Program-made: the position numbers and the translations under genes
Source of the DNA: Citreimonas salinaria
Lineage (GTDB): Bacteria; Pseudomonadota; Alphaproteobacteria; Rhodobacterales; Rhodobacteraceae
NCBI RefSeq assembly: GCF_900107235.1
Contig: NZ_FNPF01000003.1
Span: 186,001 to 250,000 of the forward strand
Direction of reading: 5' to 3'
Length of the DNA stretch: 64,000 nt
Part shown: one piece after another, positions 36,916 to 43,103 of the stretch
Layout of the letters: each line of letters opens with the position of its first letter
How positions within the stretch are numbered: position 1 is the first letter of the stretch
The notes under the pieces: generated by a model
Seen by the model: the letters and a program-made list of their open reading frames with translations, nothing else
Databases searched by the model: none
What the model was told of the DNA's origin: nothing

Positions 36916-37932
36916 ATGCGATTCCACACCGTTTCGATCCTGGCACTGGCCGTGGCCGCCACCGCCGCGCCCGCCCTCGCCCAGGGCGAACTGAACCTCT
37001 ACTCCTCGCGCCACTACGACACCGACGAGCGGCTGTATTCCGATTTCGAGGATCAGACCGGCATCACCATCAACCGCATCGAGGGCAACGCCGACGAGCT
37101 GATCGCGCGCATGGAGGCCGAGGGTGCGAACTCGCCCGCGGACGTGCTGCTGACCGTCGACACCTCGCGCCTGCAGCGCGCGAAGGATGCCGGCGTCCTG
37201 CAGGCGGTCGAGTCGGACGTTCTGGAAGAGCGCATCCCCGGCCAATACCAGGACACCGACAACCAGTGGTTCGGCTTCTCGCTGCGCGGGCGGATCATCT
37301 TCTACGCCAAGGACCGCGTCGAGAACCCGCCGCAGACCTACATGGACCTCGCGAACGAGGCCTATGACGACAGCATCTGCATCCGGTCCTCGACCAACAC
37401 CTACAACCAGACCCTGCTGGCCTCGATCATCGAGAACCAGGGCGAGGAAGCCGCCCGCGAATGGGCCAACGGCATCGTCGAGAACATGGCGCGCGACCCG
37501 CAGGGCGGCGACACCGACCAGCTGCGCGGCCTCGTGTCGGGCGAATGCGACATCGCCGTGTCGAACACCTACTACTTTGCCCGCGCGCTTGCCGACCAGG
37601 TGGACGGCGTGACCGAGGGGATCGACAACATCGGCTGGGTCTTCCCGAACCAGGACACCACCGGCGCGCACGTGAACCTGTCGGGCGGCGGCGTCGCGGC
37701 GCACGCGCCCAACCGCGACAACGCGGTGGCCTTCCTGGAATACCTCGCCAGCGACTCGGCGCAGCAGTACTTTGCCGCCGGCAACAATGAGTATCCGGCC
37801 GTCGAGGGTGTCGAGACCACCGAGGCGGTCGACCAGCTGGGCGAGTTCAAGGCCGACGACGTCGACCTGTCGGCCGTGGCCGAGCACCTGGGCCAGGCGC
37901 AGGAAATCTTCAACGAAGCCGGCTGGGAATAA
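36916..37932 (+). CDS. fbpA: Periplasmic ferric-iron-binding protein
   Basis: A 338-residue extracellular solute-binding protein of the Fe(III) ABC transporter type. A signal peptide (ILALAVAATAAPALA) precedes GELNLYSSRHYDTDERLY. Iron-ligand tyrosines are expected in the NTYYFARAL and related segments, and the blocks ADVLLTVDTSRLQRAKDAG and SGGGVAAHAPNRDNAVAFLEYL match FutA/FbpA proteins. It faces the permease gene fbpB across a shared terminator region, and no ATPase gene is in the window. ACGGGAG precedes the ATG at a good distance. Confidence 0.92.
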   Translation: MRFHTVSILALAVAATAAPALAQGELNLYSSRHYDTDERLYSDFEDQTGITINRIEGNADELIARMEAEGANSPADVLLTVDTSRLQRAKDAGVLQAVESDVLEERIPGQYQDTDNQWFGFSLRGRIIFYAKDRVENPPQTYMDLANEAYDDSICIRSSTNTYNQTLLASIIENQGEEAAREWANGIVENMARDPQGGDTDQLRGLVSGECDIAVSNTYYFARALADQVDGVTEGIDNIGWVFPNQDTTGAHVNLSGGGVAAHAPNRDNAVAFLEYLASDSAQQYFAAGNNEYPAVEGVETTEAVDQLGEFKADDVDLSAVAEHLGQAQEIFNEAGWE

Positions 37933-37954
37933 GCTTCCCTTCGGGCGATTTCGC

Positions 37955-37985
37955 GGCGCGGTCCCTTCGGGGGCCGCGCCTTTTT
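37955..37985 (+). terminator. Rho-independent terminator of fbpA
   Basis: GGCGCGGTCCC (37955-37965), loop TTCG, GGGGCCGCGCC (37970-37980), then TTTTT. The stem has eleven pairs including one G-T, and the UUCG-type loop is stabilising. Confidence 0.9.
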
Positions 37986-38001
37986 CGTGGCCGAAATCAA
38001 G

Positions 38002-38074
38002 TGTCCCACGGTGGGACATGCGGGCGGACACGGAATATCAATGGGTTACAGAGGCGGATTCAGGAAGGCTTAAC
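38002..38074 (+). promoter_or_regulatory. Palindrome-promoter element, copy A
   Basis: TGTCCCACGGTGGGACA at 38002-38018 is a perfect 17-base palindrome (eight-base arms, one central base). Nineteen bases later comes TCAAT (38038-38042), then TTACAG (38046-38051), a 17-base spacer and CTTAAC (38069-38074). The same arrangement is repeated base for base in spacing at 42180-42252. It lies in the convergent gap between fbpA and fbpB, so it would start a transcript antisense to the fbpB 3' end or a small RNA. No credible protein frame follows. Confidence 0.65.
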
Positions 38075-38205
38075 CTTCGGACGCTCGCGTGGCGCATGAA
38101 GCGGCGCGCGTCGGAGCCTTGATCTGGACGTTCCGGGAAGCCACCTGGCCGTCGCGATTGCGCGTGAAACCGGAGGCATCGCGGTTCGGTTCGACCCTTC
38201 CAACC

Positions 38206-38252
38206 GTCGCGGTTCCGCGCGACCCGTGTCAGCTGTCGCGGTTCCGCGCGAC
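38206..38252. repeat. Duplicated 18-bp hairpin at the fbpB 3' end
   Basis: GTCGCGGTTCCGCGCGAC occurs at 38206-38223 and 38235-38252, 29 bp apart. Each copy has GTCGCG/CGCGAC arms. The second copy encodes the last residues of FbpB (VARNRD) and the first repeats them just past its stop, a small 3' end duplication. Confidence 0.8.
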
Positions 38253-39863
38253 CTGGCGGCACAGCAACGCCACCGGGACCAGCCCGATCAGCGCGATCAC
38301 CAAGCTGGGCACCGCCGCGCCGTCCAGCCGCTCGTCCGAGGCCAGCCGGTAGGCCTGCACCGCCAGCGTGTCGAAGTTGAACGGCCGCATGATCAGCGTC
38401 GCGGGCAGCTCCTTCATCACGTCGACGAAGACGATCAGCGCGGCGGTCAGCAGCGACGGCGTCAGGATCGGCACGTGCACCCGGCGCACCACGCCGAAGG
38501 CGTTCTGCCCCAGCACCCGCGCCGCGGCGTCGATGTTGTCGCTGACCGCGGCGATGCCGCCCTCGTAGGCGCCGATCGCGGCGGCGAGGAAGCGGATCAT
38601 GTAGGCCGCCACCAGAAGCCAGATCGACCCGGTGAACAGCAGGCCGGTCGAGACGTCGAAGGTCTGCCGCATCCAGGCGTCCAGCGCGTTGTCGAACCCG
38701 GCGAAGGGCACCAGAAGCCCCACGGCGATCACGCCGCCCGGCACCGCGTAGCCCAGCCGCGCGATGTAGATCGCGCCGGCCGACAGCCGCCCCTGGCGCA
38801 ACCGGTGATACGAGCCCAGCAGGTTCGCCGCGCCCACCGTCACCAGCGCCGCCGCGGCCGCCAGCACCAGCGAGTTGCGCACGAAGCCGATATAGCGCTC
38901 GGACAGCAGGTCCTGCCCCGACCCGGCCGCCATGAAGGCCAGCGCCAGGACCGGGACGACGAGGCCGAACAGGACGGGGATCGCGCAGGCCGCGGTGGCG
39001 GCCCAGGCGCGCGCGCCGGTCAGGGACATCCGCGCCATGACTTCCTGCCGCCGCCCGGCATCGTAGCGCGCGCGGCCGCGGCTGGTCCGCTCCATCGCGG
39101 CGAGGATCAGCGCGAAGGTCAGCAGGCCCAGCGACAGCTGCGCCGCCGCCGCGCGGTCGGCCATCGAGAACCAGCTCTGGTAGATGCCCGTGGCGAAGGT
39201 CTGCACGCCGAAATAGCTGACGGTGCCGAAATCGGCGATCGTCTCCATCGCCGCCAGCAGCACGCCCGCCGCGATCGCCGGGCGCGCCATCGGCAGCGAC
39301 ACCGACAGGAACGCCCGCGTCGGGGACCGCCCCAGCGCGCGCGCGGCGTAGAACGTGGTGGCCGACTGGCCGACGAAGGCCGCGCGCGCCAGCAGGTAGA
39401 CGTATGGATAGAGCACCAGCGTCAGCATCGTGGCCGCACCGCCCAGGGATCGGATCTCGGGGAACCAGTAGTCGCGCGGGCCCCAGCCGGTCAGGTCGCG
39501 CAGCGCGGTCTGCACCAGCCCCGGATGATCCAGCAGGTCGGTGTAGGCGTAGGCCAGCACGTAGGCGGGAAAGGCGAGCGGGATCACCAGCGCGATCTCG
39601 AGCCAGCGGCGGCCGGGAAAGTCCGTCATCACCACCAGCCAGGCAGCGCCGGTGCCGATCACGAAGGTGCCCGCGCCCACCAGCACGACCAGCGCGACCG
39701 TCGTCCCCGCGTAACGCGGCAGGACCGTGTCGAGCAGGTGGGGCAGCGTGTCGCCCTGCCCCGACAGCGCCGCCGCCAGCACGCCCAGATGCGGCAGGGC
39801 GCAGATCAGCGCGACGAACGCCGCCACCGCCGCGAGCGCGTGCTCGGCGTGAAATCGCTTCAT
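38229..39863 (-). CDS. fbpB: Iron(III) ABC transporter permease
   Basis: A 544-residue protein with two fused MetI-type permease domains, about twelve helices in total. Each domain carries the cytoplasmic loop that docks the ATPase: an AARALGRSPTRAF segment near residue 195 and AAARVLGQNAFGVVRRVHVP near residue 455. The pattern MKELPATLIMRPFNFDTLAVQAYRLASDERL near the C-terminus is characteristic of FbpB/FutB. It is convergent with fbpA. The ATPase (fbpC) is not adjacent, so it must be supplied from another locus or shared. Confidence 0.92.
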   Translation of the reverse strand: MKRFHAEHALAAVAAFVALICALPHLGVLAAALSGQGDTLPHLLDTVLPRYAGTTVALVVLVGAGTFVIGTGAAWLVVMTDFPGRRWLEIALVIPLAFPAYVLAYAYTDLLDHPGLVQTALRDLTGWGPRDYWFPEIRSLGGAATMLTLVLYPYVYLLARAAFVGQSATTFYAARALGRSPTRAFLSVSLPMARPAIAAGVLLAAMETIADFGTVSYFGVQTFATGIYQSWFSMADRAAAAQLSLGLLTFALILAAMERTSRGRARYDAGRRQEVMARMSLTGARAWAATAACAIPVLFGLVVPVLALAFMAAGSGQDLLSERYIGFVRNSLVLAAAAALVTVGAANLLGSYHRLRQGRLSAGAIYIARLGYAVPGGVIAVGLLVPFAGFDNALDAWMRQTFDVSTGLLFTGSIWLLVAAYMIRFLAAAIGAYEGGIAAVSDNIDAAARVLGQNAFGVVRRVHVPILTPSLLTAALIVFVDVMKELPATLIMRPFNFDTLAVQAYRLASDERLDGAAVPSLVIALIGLVPVALLCRQVARNRDS

Positions 39864-40042
39864 GGATTGCCAGTCCCCGCTGTCTCGGCGGTCTGACTAC
39901 CTGCTTGCGCCCCCCCGTTGCAAGCGGCGAGGCCCAGCCCGGCACGGACAAGCCGACCGCGGGCTTTGCGGTGCGCCGGAGGCAGTCCGCCAGGAGGGAT
40001 GGGCGCCGGGAGGGATGGGCGCGGGGGTGAAGCCGGCCGCCC

Positions 40043-40420
40043 TCAGGCGGCGGGCGCCGTCGAACCGCAGGAATCGCGGGCAATGCAGCACGCCACGTCG
40101 CGCGCGGTGAAAGGGAACGGCATGATCGAGACCCGAGGTGCCGCGCTGAGCGCTTCGGGCATCGTCTCGGCCCCGTGCAGGATGACGTTGGTGCCCGCGC
40201 GGCCCAGCCGGTGCGCCACCCGCACCGCCACGTCCAGCGCGGCCCGCCGCGGCATGCGCAGGAACGCATGGCTGTGGCGGCCGCCGACAAGCGCTGCCTC
40301 GGCCTCGGCCAGGGTTTCGGAGCGCACCGTCACCTGCGCCGTCGCATCCCGGCTGAGGACCGAGTCGCTGAGATCCATGGCGATGACCGGGTCACTTTCG
40401 ACGATGAGTACATTCAGCAT
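40043..40420 (-). CDS. Degenerate receiver-domain protein
   Basis: A 125-residue protein with the shape of a response-regulator receiver domain: MLNVLIVESDPVIAMDL with the acidic pair at the N-terminus and a C-terminal IMPFPFTARDV where KPF-type sequence is expected. The phospho-acceptor aspartate position reads HAFLRMP, with no Asp, and the conserved lysine is replaced by Pro. It therefore probably cannot be phosphorylated in the usual way. It has no output domain. It diverges from the Crp/Fnr gene with 88 bp between, so the two may share control. Confidence 0.75.
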   Translation of the reverse strand: MLNVLIVESDPVIAMDLSDSVLSRDATAQVTVRSETLAEAEAALVGGRHSHAFLRMPRRAALDVAVRVAHRLGRAGTNVILHGAETMPEALSAAPRVSIMPFPFTARDVACCIARDSCGSTAPAA

Positions 40421-40508
40421 AGACTAGATTGACCTTCCTGATTCGCTACCAGCGTAGACCCGGCGCGATCTCTGGACATTAACCTGTGACATAGGGCGCC
40501 ATTTCCAC

Positions 40509-41237
40509 ATGCAGATACCGTGCCGAACCTGCCCGCTGCGCGCCCTGCCCACGTTCCAGTCGCTGTCCCCCGAGGAACTCGCCGTCACCGAGAAGCTCAA
40601 GCGGGGCGAATTGCGGGTCGAGGCGGGCATGCCGATCCTGTCGGAGGGGTCGAACTCGCCGCAATTGTTCACCGTGCTCGAGGGCCAGGCGCTGCGGTTC
40701 AAGTCGCTGGAGAACGGCGAGCGGCAGGTTCTGGGCTTTGTCTTCCCCGGAGATTTCATAGGCTTGCAAGCCGCGGTGATGGCAGAGATGGAACATTCCG
40801 TCACCGCCGTCACGCCGATGCTGCTGTGCGTGTTCGACCGCGGCGACCTGGTGCGGCTGTACCAGGACAGCCCGACGCGCGCGTTCGACCTGACATGGAT
40901 CGCCGCCGAGGAGGAATCGATGCTGGCCGAGGCGCTGGCGACGGTCGGCCAGCAAGGTGCGCGGGCGCGCGTCGCCTGGGGGCTGCTGCGGCTGATGGAC
41001 CGCGCCGAGACGGCGGGGCTGGTGCGCGACGGCGTGGCGCCAATGCCGTTCCGCCAGCACGACCTGGCCGATGCGCTGGGGCTGTCGGTGGTGCACACGA
41101 ACAAGACGCTCGCGTCGCTGCGCGCGGACGGCCTGGCGACGCTGCGCGACCGCACGCTGACGATCCACGACCGCCCGCGGCTGGAACGGCTGGTGGGCAC
41201 GACGATGCGGCGCGCCCGCACGCGGCCGCTGATCTGA
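40509..41237 (+). CDS. Crp/Fnr-family regulator
   Basis: A 242-residue Crp/Fnr-family regulator. A short cysteine motif (CRTCPLR) at the N-terminus resembles the cluster-binding part of Fnr proteins, but only two of the expected cysteines are evident, so oxygen sensing is uncertain. The cyclic-nucleotide-like domain shows EGQALRFKSLENGERQVLGFVFPGDFIGL, and the winged helix MPFRQHDLADALGLSVVHTNKTLASLRADGL near residue 180 is the DNA-binding part. Similar roseobacter regulators occur in microaerobic and nitrogen-oxide control. It diverges from the degenerate receiver protein. Confidence 0.87.
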   Translation: MQIPCRTCPLRALPTFQSLSPEELAVTEKLKRGELRVEAGMPILSEGSNSPQLFTVLEGQALRFKSLENGERQVLGFVFPGDFIGLQAAVMAEMEHSVTAVTPMLLCVFDRGDLVRLYQDSPTRAFDLTWIAAEEESMLAEALATVGQQGARARVAWGLLRLMDRAETAGLVRDGVAPMPFRQHDLADALGLSVVHTNKTLASLRADGLATLRDRTLTIHDRPRLERLVGTTMRRARTRPLI

Positions 41238-41338
41238 GGCGTGCGGCCGGGCAAGCGGCGCGCATGTCTTGCCGCGCCGCCGCCGCGACCCATCTCGTTC
41301 CCCGGCCGCCCCGGCCGGATCCACGTCACGGAGAAGCC

Positions 41339-42166
41339 ATGCCCCGTCTCGCAGCCCTCGCCCCGACCCTCGGCCTTGCCCTGGCCGCCTGCCTTGTCGC
41401 CCTGCCGCTGCGGGCGCACGAGTTCTGGATCGAGCCCGAGGCCTGGCAGGTCGCGCCGGACGAGGTGATCGCCGCGCGGCTGATCAATGGGCAGGAGTTC
41501 GATGGGATCGAACTGTCGGCCGCCACGGCCACGCCGGTGCGGGCCGAGGCGATCCGAGACGACAGCGCCGTCGCGCTGGACCCGCGGGGGACGGACAAGC
41601 CCGCCATCGCCTTCCGCCCCGCCGGTCCGGGACTGACGACGCTGCTGTACCAGACCGACCACATGGTCGTGATCTACGACACGCTGGCCGATTTCGCGTC
41701 CTTCGCCGAGAGCAAGGGCGCGGACTGGGCGGTCGGGCGGCACCGCGAGGCGGGCCTGCGCGAGGAGACGATCTTCGAGGCTTATGCCCGGTTCGCCAAG
41801 GCGCTGGTCGCAGTGGGCGACGGCGCGGGGGCGGACGCGCTGCGCGGCATGGAGATCGAGCTGGTGGCCGAGACCAACCCCTACACCGACCCGACGGACG
41901 GCGGCGTGGACGTGCGGCTGTTCTACCGGGGCGCGCCGCTGGCGGACACGCTGGTCACGGTGTTCGACCGCGCACCGGACGGCACGGTCGAGACCCGCGA
42001 GACGCTGACCGACGCCAAGGGGCGCGCCAGCGTGGCGGTCACGCCGGGGCACGATTACCTGGTCGACGCGGTGGTGATCCGAGAGCCGGCGGAGGCAATC
42101 GCGCAGGCGCACCGCGCGGTGTGGGAATCGGTCTGGGCGTCGCTGACGTTCTCGGTGCCGGAATAG
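41339..42166 (+). CDS. DUF4198 periplasmic protein
   Basis: A 275-residue secreted protein with a signal peptide (GLALAACLVALPLRAHEFWI). The HEFWIEPEAWQV opening and the C-terminal GVDVRLFYRGAPLADTLVTVFDR and TDAKGRASVAVTPGHDYLVDAVV blocks mark the DUF4198 family, often linked to metal (nickel/cobalt) uptake loci. No such transporter is next to it here. It is on the same strand as the Crp/Fnr gene, 100 bp downstream. Function is unknown. Confidence 0.82.
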   Translation: MPRLAALAPTLGLALAACLVALPLRAHEFWIEPEAWQVAPDEVIAARLINGQEFDGIELSAATATPVRAEAIRDDSAVALDPRGTDKPAIAFRPAGPGLTTLLYQTDHMVVIYDTLADFASFAESKGADWAVGRHREAGLREETIFEAYARFAKALVAVGDGAGADALRGMEIELVAETNPYTDPTDGGVDVRLFYRGAPLADTLVTVFDRAPDGTVETRETLTDAKGRASVAVTPGHDYLVDAVVIREPAEAIAQAHRAVWESVWASLTFSVPE

Positions 42167-42179
42167 GGCCCGGACGGGG

Positions 42180-42252
42180 TGTCCCACGGTGGGACATCCC
42201 TCGACGCAAGTGATTTCAATATCTTGCAGAGACGCCTTCACGTTTCGCTAAC
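42180..42252 (+). promoter_or_regulatory. Palindrome-promoter element, copy B
   Basis: The 17-base palindrome TGTCCCACGGTGGGACA at 42180-42196 is identical to copy A at 38002. TCAAT follows 19 bases on (42216-42220), then TTGCAG (42224-42229), a 17-base spacer and GCTAAC (42247-42252). The reading direction leads to the D-lyxose isomerase gene, whose ATG is 186 bp past the -10. The leader is long and GC-rich. Confidence 0.65.
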
Positions 42253-42437
42253 ACGTCAGGCGTGGGGGGACCGGCCTGGCGGGGCCTGGACGGGCCCGTC
42301 CCGGCGCCTGCGCGTCCGGGCCCGGGCCGCGTCTCCAGCCTCCCTGTCCGGCGCTCGTCTCCCCCCTGTGCAGCGCCGCCGTTTTGCGGCATGAGAGGCG
42401 CTAACATGCTCGCAGAAGCCACCGCAGGGAGCCCGCC

Positions 42438-43103
42438 ATGAAACGGTCCGAAGTCAACACCATCATCGCCGAAGGCGACGCCTTCATCCGCCGCTTCGGG
42501 CACATCCTGCCGCCCTTCGCCTATTGGACGCCCAAGCAGATGCGCGCCCCCGAGACGGCGACGATCCGCGAGCGGGGCCTGGGCTGGGACATCACCGATT
42601 ACGGCGCGGGGCGGTTCGACGAGATGGGGCTGTTCCTGTTCACCACGCGCAACGGCGCGCTTCAGGATCTAAAGCGCGGGCGCGGGATGCTCTACGCGGA
42701 AAAGATCATGATCACCCGCCGCGACCAGCTGTCGCCCATGCACCGGCACGACCTGAAGGCCGAGGACATCATCAACCGCGGCGGCGGCAAATTGGTGATC
42801 GAGCTGTTCGCGCCGGATGCCGACGGCAGTATCGACGAGTCCGCGCGCGTCACCGTGCCCTGCGACGGGGTCGAACGCACGGTGGATGCGGGCGGGCGCA
42901 TCGCGCTGGCGCCGGGCGAGAGCGTGACGCTGATGCCGGGCGTCTGGCACGCCTTCTGGGCCGAGGGCGACGATTGCCTGATCGGCGAGGTATCCACCGT
43001 CAACGACGACAAGACCGACAACATCTTCCGCGATTCGATCGGGCGGTTCTCGAAAATCGACGAGGACGTGGCGCCGAGCCACCTTCTGGTGGCGGATTAC
43101 TGA
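42438..43103 (+). CDS. D-lyxose ketol-isomerase family cupin protein
   Basis: A 221-residue cupin of the D-lyxose isomerase family. MKRSEVNTIIAEGDAFIRRFG at the start and LPPFAYWTP are family-typical. Metal ligands are visible in MHRHDLKAEDI (two His and a Glu) and the later VWHAFW. The enzyme converts D-lyxose and D-xylulose, and some relatives act on mannose/fructose. No sugar kinase or transporter is next to it, so its pathway is unclear. Ribosome site GCAGGGAG precedes the ATG. Confidence 0.83.
   Translation: MKRSEVNTIIAEGDAFIRRFGHILPPFAYWTPKQMRAPETATIRERGLGWDITDYGAGRFDEMGLFLFTTRNGALQDLKRGRGMLYAEKIMITRRDQLSPMHRHDLKAEDIINRGGGKLVIELFAPDADGSIDESARVTVPCDGVERTVDAGGRIALAPGESVTLMPGVWHAFWAEGDDCLIGEVSTVNDDKTDNIFRDSIGRFSKIDEDVAPSHLLVADY

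Follow-up and report, generated by a model that had tools for sequence, protein, structure and literature searches.

A dispersed palindromic element with a predicted IHF site, mostly beside gene ends, in Citreimonas salinaria and other Rhodobacteraceae

Boccard and Prentki (1993, as cited in PMC12306157) are said to have described a repeated palindrome with an IHF site at transcription-unit 3' ends in E. coli. The RIB/BIME-1 elements of this species number about 70 copies. To our knowledge, the role of IHF-bearing gene-end repeats in E. coli is still unsettled. RIP elements of E. coli are presented as repeated extragenic palindromes with an IHF site (PMC2892488), and BIME-1 as two REP palindromes around an IHF site (PMC2817692). 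The latter source also gives E. coli REPs a GTAG head and ties them to RAYT transposases; REPs are described as palindromic, intergenic, lineage-specific and thought to change together with their partner (PMC2817692).

The element characterized here resembles the repeated IHF elements of E. coli without being identical to them. Judged from sequence, it shares with RIB/RIP (BIME-1) a repeated extragenic palindrome with a predicted IHF site at gene 3' ends. Unlike BIME-1, it usually carries one clean palindrome in C. salinaria instead of two REPs around the IHF site, has no fixed head and a genus-specific centre, occurs in a different class of Proteobacteria and is found without a Y1 transposase. 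It is palindromic, intergenic and lineage-specific as REP/RAYT systems are, but differs from these in lacking a GTAG/GTGG head, in being a fixed 80-bp composite and in the absence of PF01797 from 13 genomes with matches. The exact 17-mers and related strings were absent from the literature searched, which is weak evidence since subscription papers were mostly not included. Likewise, no description of the element was found under dispersed, IHF or palindromic repeats in Rhodobacter, Roseobacter or alphaproteobacteria in the literature searched (few subscription papers).

Architecture of the element in C. salinaria

The window, a stretch of 64,000 nucleotides (C31:186001-250000), belongs to the 4.26-Mb genome of C. 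salinaria (G000; other G numbers denote genomes of other genera). It contains two copies, A and B, of the element (Table 1). Both carry an exact 17-mer (0/100 shuffles gave as many matches) that forms an odd palindrome with one unpaired central base, called P1 hereafter except in the name P1 parS. The layout given in an earlier note on this DNA was confirmed: P1, 19 bases, TCAAT, four bases, TTACAG (A) or TTGCAG (B), 17 bases, and CTTAAC (A) or GCTAAC (B). Genome-wide, TGTCCCACGRTGGGACA occurs in 68 exact copies, and its reversed control in none. It is always the left end of one oriented element of ~80 bp, the downstream block being present at all 68 copies with the same spacing (one shifted by one base). 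A profile search yielded 73 strong matches; the counts for C. salinaria refer to 73 copies, i.e. the 68 exact ones and five near ones located via the IHF core. Copies A and B are members of a dispersed family of about 70 elements, the majority of which lie next to an end of an ordinary gene.

Pairwise identity is 0.968 in P1 versus 0.486 in the adjoining spacer, so P1 looks selected. The earlier note had regarded the two copies as functional architecture with fixed spacing and not as a recent copy. This view is borne out by the family, in which the filler has diverged and P1 is nearly invariant, and further copies with fixed spacing, which the note had proposed to seek, exist both in this genome and in relatives. 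Co-variation that would lengthen the stem is seen beside P1 in C. salinaria (P<0.001) and G262 (P 0.016); it is not significant in G281 (P 0.40) and G198 (P 0.065), and kinship among copies can mimic it. G-rich positions precede P1, with no fixed or GTAG-type head among the C. salinaria copies. TGTCCC at +75 is found in 1/73, which corresponds to one palindrome per element.

The block previously taken for TCAAT and a -35 box matches the IHF consensus WATCAANNNNTTR, as printed in PMC10380432. The column majority of 68 copies agrees with all nine specified positions; 50 of the 73 copies match in full and 71 in the core, five of the latter having been located by it. The centres of P1 and the predicted IHF site are 32.5 bp apart in 70/71 copies of C. 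salinaria, 26/27 of G281 and 27/30 of G198, and 33 or 32 bp apart in 29/29 of G262. Copies from other genera are best-scoring subsets (G262, 29 of 77 matches; G281, 27 of 81; G198, 30 of 64), kept only with a CAA....TT[AG] core, so that counts of the IHF core are partly circular there. An A/T-rich tail, TTNA..TTA, is the third module.

Table 1 Features at copies A and B (window coordinates)
Feature	Position	Strand	Remarks
Copy A element	38000..38081	+	R1 profile match G000:C31:224000-224081, 68.6 bits
Copy A palindrome P1	38002..38018	.	Odd palindrome, one unpaired central base
Copy A predicted IHF site TATCAATGGGTTA	38036..38048	+	Full match to WATCAANNNNTTR
Copy A tail block, TTNA then TTA	38059..38074	+	End is the supposed -10 of the earlier note
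Copy B element	42175..42254	+	R1 profile match G000:C31:228175-228254, 63.4 bits
Copy B palindrome P1	42180..42196	.	Exact match
Copy B IHF-like site TTTCAATATCTTG	42214..42226	+	Core TCAANNNNTTR kept, one departure from WATCAANNNNTTR
GC hairpin with T-run, ordinary terminator by eye	37953..37985	+	Separates upstream gene stop from copy A
ABC transporter substrate-binding protein gene, 3' end before copy A	36916..37932	+	NCBIfam matches below cut-off
ABC transporter permease gene, convergent, beyond copy A	38229..39863	-	NCBIfam matches below cut-off
Gene without NCBIfam match	41339..42166	+	Called ORF; stop 13 nt ahead of copy B
D-lyxose/D-mannose isomerase family gene, 3' of copy B	42438..43103	+	Below curated cut-off

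Genomic context and transcription

According to the called ORFs, the element tends to lie at gene 3' ends, as RIB/BIME-1 does. In 39 of the 73 copies, a stop codon on the same strand precedes P1 by 0-31 nt; distances are approximate because a home-made gene caller was used. The called upstream ORF enters the element by 35 nt at L031 and by 72 nt at L047, which was set aside as inside a gene. Gaps with the element are convergent, tandem or divergent in 29, 36 and 7 cases, as compared with 6, 48 and 28 among other gaps of at least 100 bp and 23, 142 and 35 among all other gaps of any length. The convergent excess is pronounced against the two backgrounds (P 1.6e-6 and 8e-7). The depletion of divergent gaps is clear against gaps of at least 100 bp (P 4e-4) and not significant against all gaps (P 0.13).

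The earlier note had proposed an activator-dependent promoter, here taken as one of the sigma-70 type, with P1 as a class I activator site, TTRCAG as the -35 and [CG][TC]TAAC as the -10 box. Fixed spacing is in line with such a promoter, as is the frequency of TTRCAG in C. salinaria (58/73), G262 (29/29) and G281 (23/27). However, TTRCAG is found in 0/30 copies of G198 and 0/3 each of G308, G091 and G407, while the IHF block stays (these copies were selected for its core). The full pattern TTRCAG-17-[CG][TC]TAAC proved not to be general, as it occurs in 10 of the 73 C. salinaria copies and the putative -10 is rare. Moreover, the next gene turns its 3' end to the element in 45/71 cases and is co-directional in just 26/71, so that the promoter interpretation fails. 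Activator dependence finds no support in an IHF-consensus block placed at 3' ends, with TTRCAG missing from the copies read in four genera. The 25 flanking proteins inspected at other loci include many housekeeping enzymes and reveal no regulon theme; the lyxose isomerase gene, at which copy B was said to point and which does lie 3' of this copy, is therefore probably an incidental neighbor. The flanks of L143 and L146, two low-copy elements, contained no obvious regulator on reading. Gene context, the counting of motifs in several genera and the functions of some neighbors led to the rejection of a promoter/regulon role. The elements are probably not promoters, and the specific sigma-70 layout is extremely improbable.

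Alternatively, the palindrome could be nothing more than a shared RNA hairpin with a role in transcript ending or protection, and the IHF block could be incidental or secondary. The position shortly after stop codons, the co-varying stem in C. salinaria and G262, and runs of at least four T after P1 in 13/30 copies of G198 are compatible with this. Runs of this kind are also seen in 8/29 copies of G262 and 5/27 of G281. In C. salinaria, though, they follow P1 in only 2/73 copies, which makes intrinsic termination doubtful in this genome, the hairpin-with-T-run pattern of an intrinsic terminator being mostly missing there. A hairpin also leaves unexplained the near-invariance of 17 letters, the fixed 32.5-bp register and the extra half-site of G281 (see below). 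At least two copies far from a stop codon, copy A and L066, already have, by eye, a separate terminator-like hairpin of their own that comes first. We consider the hairpin alone quite unlikely. Searches of five C. salinaria loci against Rfam gave 0 matches at gathering score.

Distribution among Rhodobacteraceae

Of the 394 Rhodobacteraceae genera sampled, 28 gave profile matches, which were inspected in part; copy numbers range from 1 to ~80, with three or more in 19 genera. Besides the samples given above, small best-scoring ones were taken from G263 (4 of 25 matches), G308 (3 of 79), G091 (3 of 51) and G407 (3 of 17). Loci L128, L177, L166, L153 and L145 were dropped for missing the core regex, and L167, L185 (G281) and L149 (G091) because contig ends cut them. 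Two of the 127 rows of alignment A2 (L154 and L162, genus G064) were in the wrong orientation and fed model R2.

The centre of P1 varies by genus (ACGRT, ACGCGT, GSGCC, ACGCT). A second TGTCCC half-site lies past the tail, at +75/76, in 22/27 copies of G281, and L183 has a second full palindrome by eye. Lambda attP and P1 parS have an IHF bend with a second protein binding on both sides of it. An analogous arrangement may exist in the G281 copies, where P1 and the downstream half-site surround the IHF site; unlike attP and parS, the element has many dispersed copies, and no crossover core was identified. Most element positions are not common to genera in the samples compared. Same-side orthologous positions number four in the G281 sample, two in G262 and one in G198. 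The orthologous copy was the best match of all compared in two pairs and not the best in 8 of the 10 pairs listed.

A selfish mobile repeat of the REP/BIME or MITE type, multiplying per lineage so that the genus-specific palindrome records the last amplification, would be dispersed, mostly intergenic, patchy and variable in copy number, as the element is. The mostly non-shared positions and the roughly random spacing, seen in G198 (63 of 64 matches used) and G262 (71 of 77, omitting plasmid contigs and the three weakest matches), also agree with it. Nevertheless, some copies occupy orthologous places, P1 is intact though the neighboring sequence has diverged, and no near-identical copies were detected in the four genomes sampled, the top identity outside P1 being 0.867 in C. 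salinaria. The Y1 transposase PF01797 was searched in 24 genomes; the sole match came from G007, itself without an R1 match, and all 13 genomes with element matches lacked it. Consequently, membership in the RAYT/REP group was rejected. A MITE also fits poorly, the C. salinaria palindrome being at one end only and identity outside P1 at most 0.867. A mobile repeat is thus unlikely, if less so than the alternatives above. As for phage or plasmid origin, both rejected, a pattern scan of viral contigs returned 0 matches, and among the plasmid searches only pLA6_002 of strain La 6 matched.

Several genera have ~60-80 copies per genome with one prevailing palindrome, and pairs <10 kb apart are slightly lacking (4 vs 8.8 and 4 vs 8.4 expected), as might be the case for sites that a segregation or nucleoid-occlusion protein (Noc/SlmA/ParB-like) uses throughout the chromosome. 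Yet, neither strand bias nor a clear positional pattern was observed for the 63 sites of the single-contig G198 genome or the 71 sites on the 5.56-Mb G262 contig, in a test made without mapped origin and terminus. Placement at 3' ends and an IHF module are not known as features of such sites. This function appears very unlikely.

A possible nucleoprotein boundary at gene ends

On balance, and with moderate confidence, the element is best explained as a RIB/BIME-1-like gene-end element in which palindrome and IHF bend form a fixed nucleoprotein or hairpin boundary. We infer IHF binding, a partner of P1 and the boundary function from the architecture. The three modules would act in fixed register, namely P1, the IHF-consensus site ~32.5 bp further on (centre-to-centre) and the A/T-rich tail. 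IHF would sharply bend the DNA and bring P1 and tail together in a fixed nucleoprotein complex, with P1 gripped by a hypothetical partner that recognizes its sequence, or forming a hairpin by extrusion or on transcription, or both. Such a complex may mark gene ends, aid in ending or insulating transcription and shape the local DNA. With no GTAG head and no Y1 transposase found, the system looks like one of independent origin.

A bolder and more tentative proposal, which we regard as possible rather than probable, is that P1 is read by a novel DNA-binding protein of the Rhodobacteraceae which, together with IHF, builds a uniform knot at ~70 transcription-unit ends. This would amount to a system of boundaries across the genome. 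In each genus, the letters of its sites would have changed together, at some loci without a change of location, whereas the GTCCC arms and the register of the IHF site would have been retained. The family offers a simpler test bed than E. coli, as its copies are few, clean and rigidly spaced and its palindrome differs from genus to genus. The palindrome can serve as bait for the partner, and the natural specificity variants allow swap experiments.

Annotators should note that TTR within an IHF site can be mistaken for a -35 box. At copy A, the TTA of the IHF-consensus site TATCAATGGGTTA is the start of the supposed -35 box.

Copies of the element in Citreimonas salinaria

Both palindromes lie exactly at the positions claimed in the earlier note. 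The C. salinaria genome (4.26 Mb in 62 contigs) contains 68 exact copies of the palindrome, TGTCCCACGRTGGGACA, split 30 to 38 between the two strands, and lacks its reversed sequence, which was used as a control. All 68 copies are followed on the 3' side by one block in constant orientation and register, with a single copy shifted by one base. A profile built from the sequences of these copies alone (R1) recovers 73 strong copies scoring at least 49 bits; below these, scores fall to 28 bits and from there to about 20 or lower. In the five extra copies, the palindrome differs at one or two positions. Copies A and B of the window are ordinary members of this set. The exact palindrome is restricted to C. 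salinaria among the 61 genomes of the relatives search. Locus L104 carries a palindrome-like TGTCCCACGGTGGGACG that lacks the conserved block; its neighbours, identified by eye, are the start of a parE-like gene on one side and a small BrnA-like ORF on the other.

Coordinates of the features (window or extracted locus)
Feature	Sequence	Position
Palindrome of copy A	window	38002-38018
Palindrome of copy B	window	42180-42196
Crp/Fnr-type regulator gene	window	40509-41237
Palindrome-like TGTCCCACGGTGGGACG	L104 (C. salinaria, C43:37606-37636)	near 1001-1017
Block and tail after TGCCCGAGCTCGGGCA	L240 (G230)	near 1501-1560
Region of a weak profile match and an ORF start	L105 (G016)	1677-2063

Among the C. 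salinaria copies, the palindrome has a pairwise identity of 0.968, compared to 0.796 for the positions around the IHF core and 0.486 for the intervening spacer; the palindrome is thus held while its neighbours drift, in a set of which 68 of 73 copies were first located by the exact palindrome and only five more were contributed by the profile search. The highest identity of any pair over positions 17-76 is 0.867 in C. salinaria and 0.867, 0.867 and 0.783 in samples from three other genera (G262, G281 and G198, respectively), so there are no recent duplicates among the copies compared. The bases flanking the palindrome form 152 Watson-Crick pairs in C. salinaria versus 121.6 expected by shuffling (P <0.001) and 51 versus 40.2 in G262 (P 0.016); G281 (P 0.40) and G198 (P 0.065) show no clear excess. 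This pairing beyond the shuffled expectation suggests that, in some genomes at least, the RNA or the DNA can adopt a hairpin state.

The conserved block and the promoter reading

The best-conserved positions 3' of the palindrome are W-A-T-C-A-A-N4-T-T-R (W 64, A 54, T 63, C 67, A 68, A 67, T 68, T 67 and R 64 of the 68 exact copies). Judged by its sequence, this block is the IHF consensus WATCAANNNNTTR, as given in a passage of PMC10380432. In one table of the review PMC6907758, this string is listed for H-NS and a different motif for IHF; in our view, these two rows of the table are swapped. The full consensus is present in 50 and its core in 71 of the 73 C. salinaria copies. The centres of palindrome and IHF block are 32.5 bp apart in 70/71 copies and, in best-scoring samples, in 26/27 from G281 and 27/30 from G198; in G262, which has a longer palindrome, the distance is 33 or 32 bp in 29/29. 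Copies from other genera are partial, best-scoring samples, retained only with a CAA....TT[AG] core, so that the presence of the core there is partly due to selection. An extra TGTCCC half-site is found at +75/76 in 22/27 G281 copies. Since TGTCCC/GGGACA half-sites also cluster upstream of the palindrome in this genome (13 versus 1.0 expected within 80 bp, e.g. L148, L172 and L183), some of its copies resemble small arrays.

The earlier note had read the element as an activator-dependent promoter, with TTRCAG as the -35 box and, for copy B, the lyxose isomerase gene as its target. TTRCAG is the TTR of the IHF site plus three letters, and these letters (CAG) are lost in copies read from G198, G308, G091 and G407 that keep the IHF block, a loss that is not an effect of the core-based selection. 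Moreover, the downstream gene is co-directional in only 26/71 C. salinaria copies (12/27, 7/26 and 7/29 in the G262, G281 and G198 samples), which speaks against a promoter aimed at the next gene. Among 30 proteins scanned (25 picked from about 145 calls flanking elements at other C. salinaria loci and five from the window), no regulatory theme was found, and many are housekeeping proteins. Named flanking genes include hslU, fabA, a UvrD/PcrA-type helicase, clpB, gatB, pheT, tyrS, murC, leuB, smc, pyruvate carboxylase, sucD and hemF; several matches, among them those of clpB, pheT, smc and the helicase, are under the curated cut-off, in some cases because the locus end truncates the gene. The Crp/Fnr-type regulator in the window is related to FnrL/FixK models but scores far under their cut-offs (84.4 versus 300 bits).

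Placement at gene ends and proposed role

According to our own gene calls, which were checked on the window, no called gene contains any of the 73 copies in its body, and 71 start clear of the upstream ORF. At L031 and L047 (C. salinaria), the called upstream ORF overlaps the element by 35 and 72 nt, respectively, and it looks as if the stop codon came from the element. Of the element gaps, 29 are convergent, 36 are tandem and 7 are divergent, compared to 6, 48 and 28 for other gaps of at least 100 bp and 23, 142 and 35 for all other gaps. The convergent excess is found against both sets (P 1.6e-6 and 8e-7, respectively), the divergent deficit only against gaps of at least 100 bp (P 4e-4; P 0.13 against all). 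The palindrome starts 0-31 nt past a same-strand stop codon in 39/73 copies, and a stop lies within 31 nt in 16/29, 15/27 and 18/30 sampled copies from G262, G281 and G198. The weaker divergent-gap and stop-distance results leave the odds of the competing readings unchanged, as the promoter reading is weighed chiefly by the loss of the motif and the direction of the genes.

We interpret the element as an IHF-bent gene-end element; its anatomy is read from the sequence, from which we infer IHF occupancy, a partner and an effect. IHF would fold the DNA and bring the palindrome (in G281, also the half-site beyond) into one complex, which may be stabilised by a putative palindrome-binding protein and/or a hairpin. 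The likely effect would be a boundary between neighbouring, often convergent, genes that helps to end or insulate transcription.

Distribution and relation to known systems

A looser palindrome pattern is found in 13 of 394 Rhodobacteraceae genomes (one per genus). R2, a profile built from many genera (E up to 1e-4; 11 the most scored per genome), matches 28 of the 394, 19 of them three or more times. Palindrome and IHF-like block were read in 18 of these 28; the palindrome is broken in G297 and G158, and in seven of the 28 the best matches failed a simple filter. In G230, one of the 18, the same IHF-like block and tail follow a different palindrome, TGCCCGAGCTCGGGCA, and variation may thus be wider than in the sampled genera. 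The weak match in G016 lies just upstream of and overlaps the start of an ORF that follows fabH and was identified by eye as IHF alpha. Instead of belonging to the family, this match may be a site of IHF autoregulation, and the same may apply to some other single-match genomes. The element is also found in CP031587.1 (Paracoccaceae bacterium La 6), and a strict pattern matched six stretches in four of the named genomes scanned, EhC02 included.

R1 copies in relatives (E up to 0.001; 0.01 for G198) and genus-specific palindrome centres in the copies read
Genome	R1 copies	Centre	Copies with centre
C. salinaria (G000)		ACGGT/ACGAT	69/73
G262	77	ACGCGT	29/29
G281	81	GGGCC/GCGCC	23/27
G308	79
G198	64	ACGRT, mostly C before GTCCC	28/30
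G091	51
G263	25	ACGCT	4/4
G407	17
G285	12
G064	9
G302	1
G315	1
G007	0

Same-side orthologous places shared with C. salinaria number four in the G281 sample, with about 0.2 expected under independent placement (our own estimate, 48 x 19 / about 4000 genes), two in the G262 sample and one in the G198 sample. For a clpB pair (L066/L123) and an aminotransferase-gene pair (L108/L173), the orthologous copy is the best match among the copies compared (ranks 1 of 73 and 1 of 29), and the palindrome centre differs within each pair. The other eight orthologous pairs listed give no best-match signal (ranks 10 to 70 of 73).

An article by Boccard and Prentki (1993) reportedly bears, by its title, on the E. 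coli RIB/RIP class. This class or BIME-1 is the closest known kind (RIP is treated in parts of PMC2892488, BIME-1 and RAYT in parts of PMC2817692), and the element shares with it the location and the combination of a palindrome with IHF. In contrast, it has no GTAG-headed REP, and the REP-associated Y1 (RAYT) transposase, PF01797, was found in 0/13 genomes with element matches (control positive in 5/14 known genomes); for these two reasons, the element is a variant and not a member of the class. The sole Y1 transposase among the 24 genomes searched is located at L250 (G007, C30).
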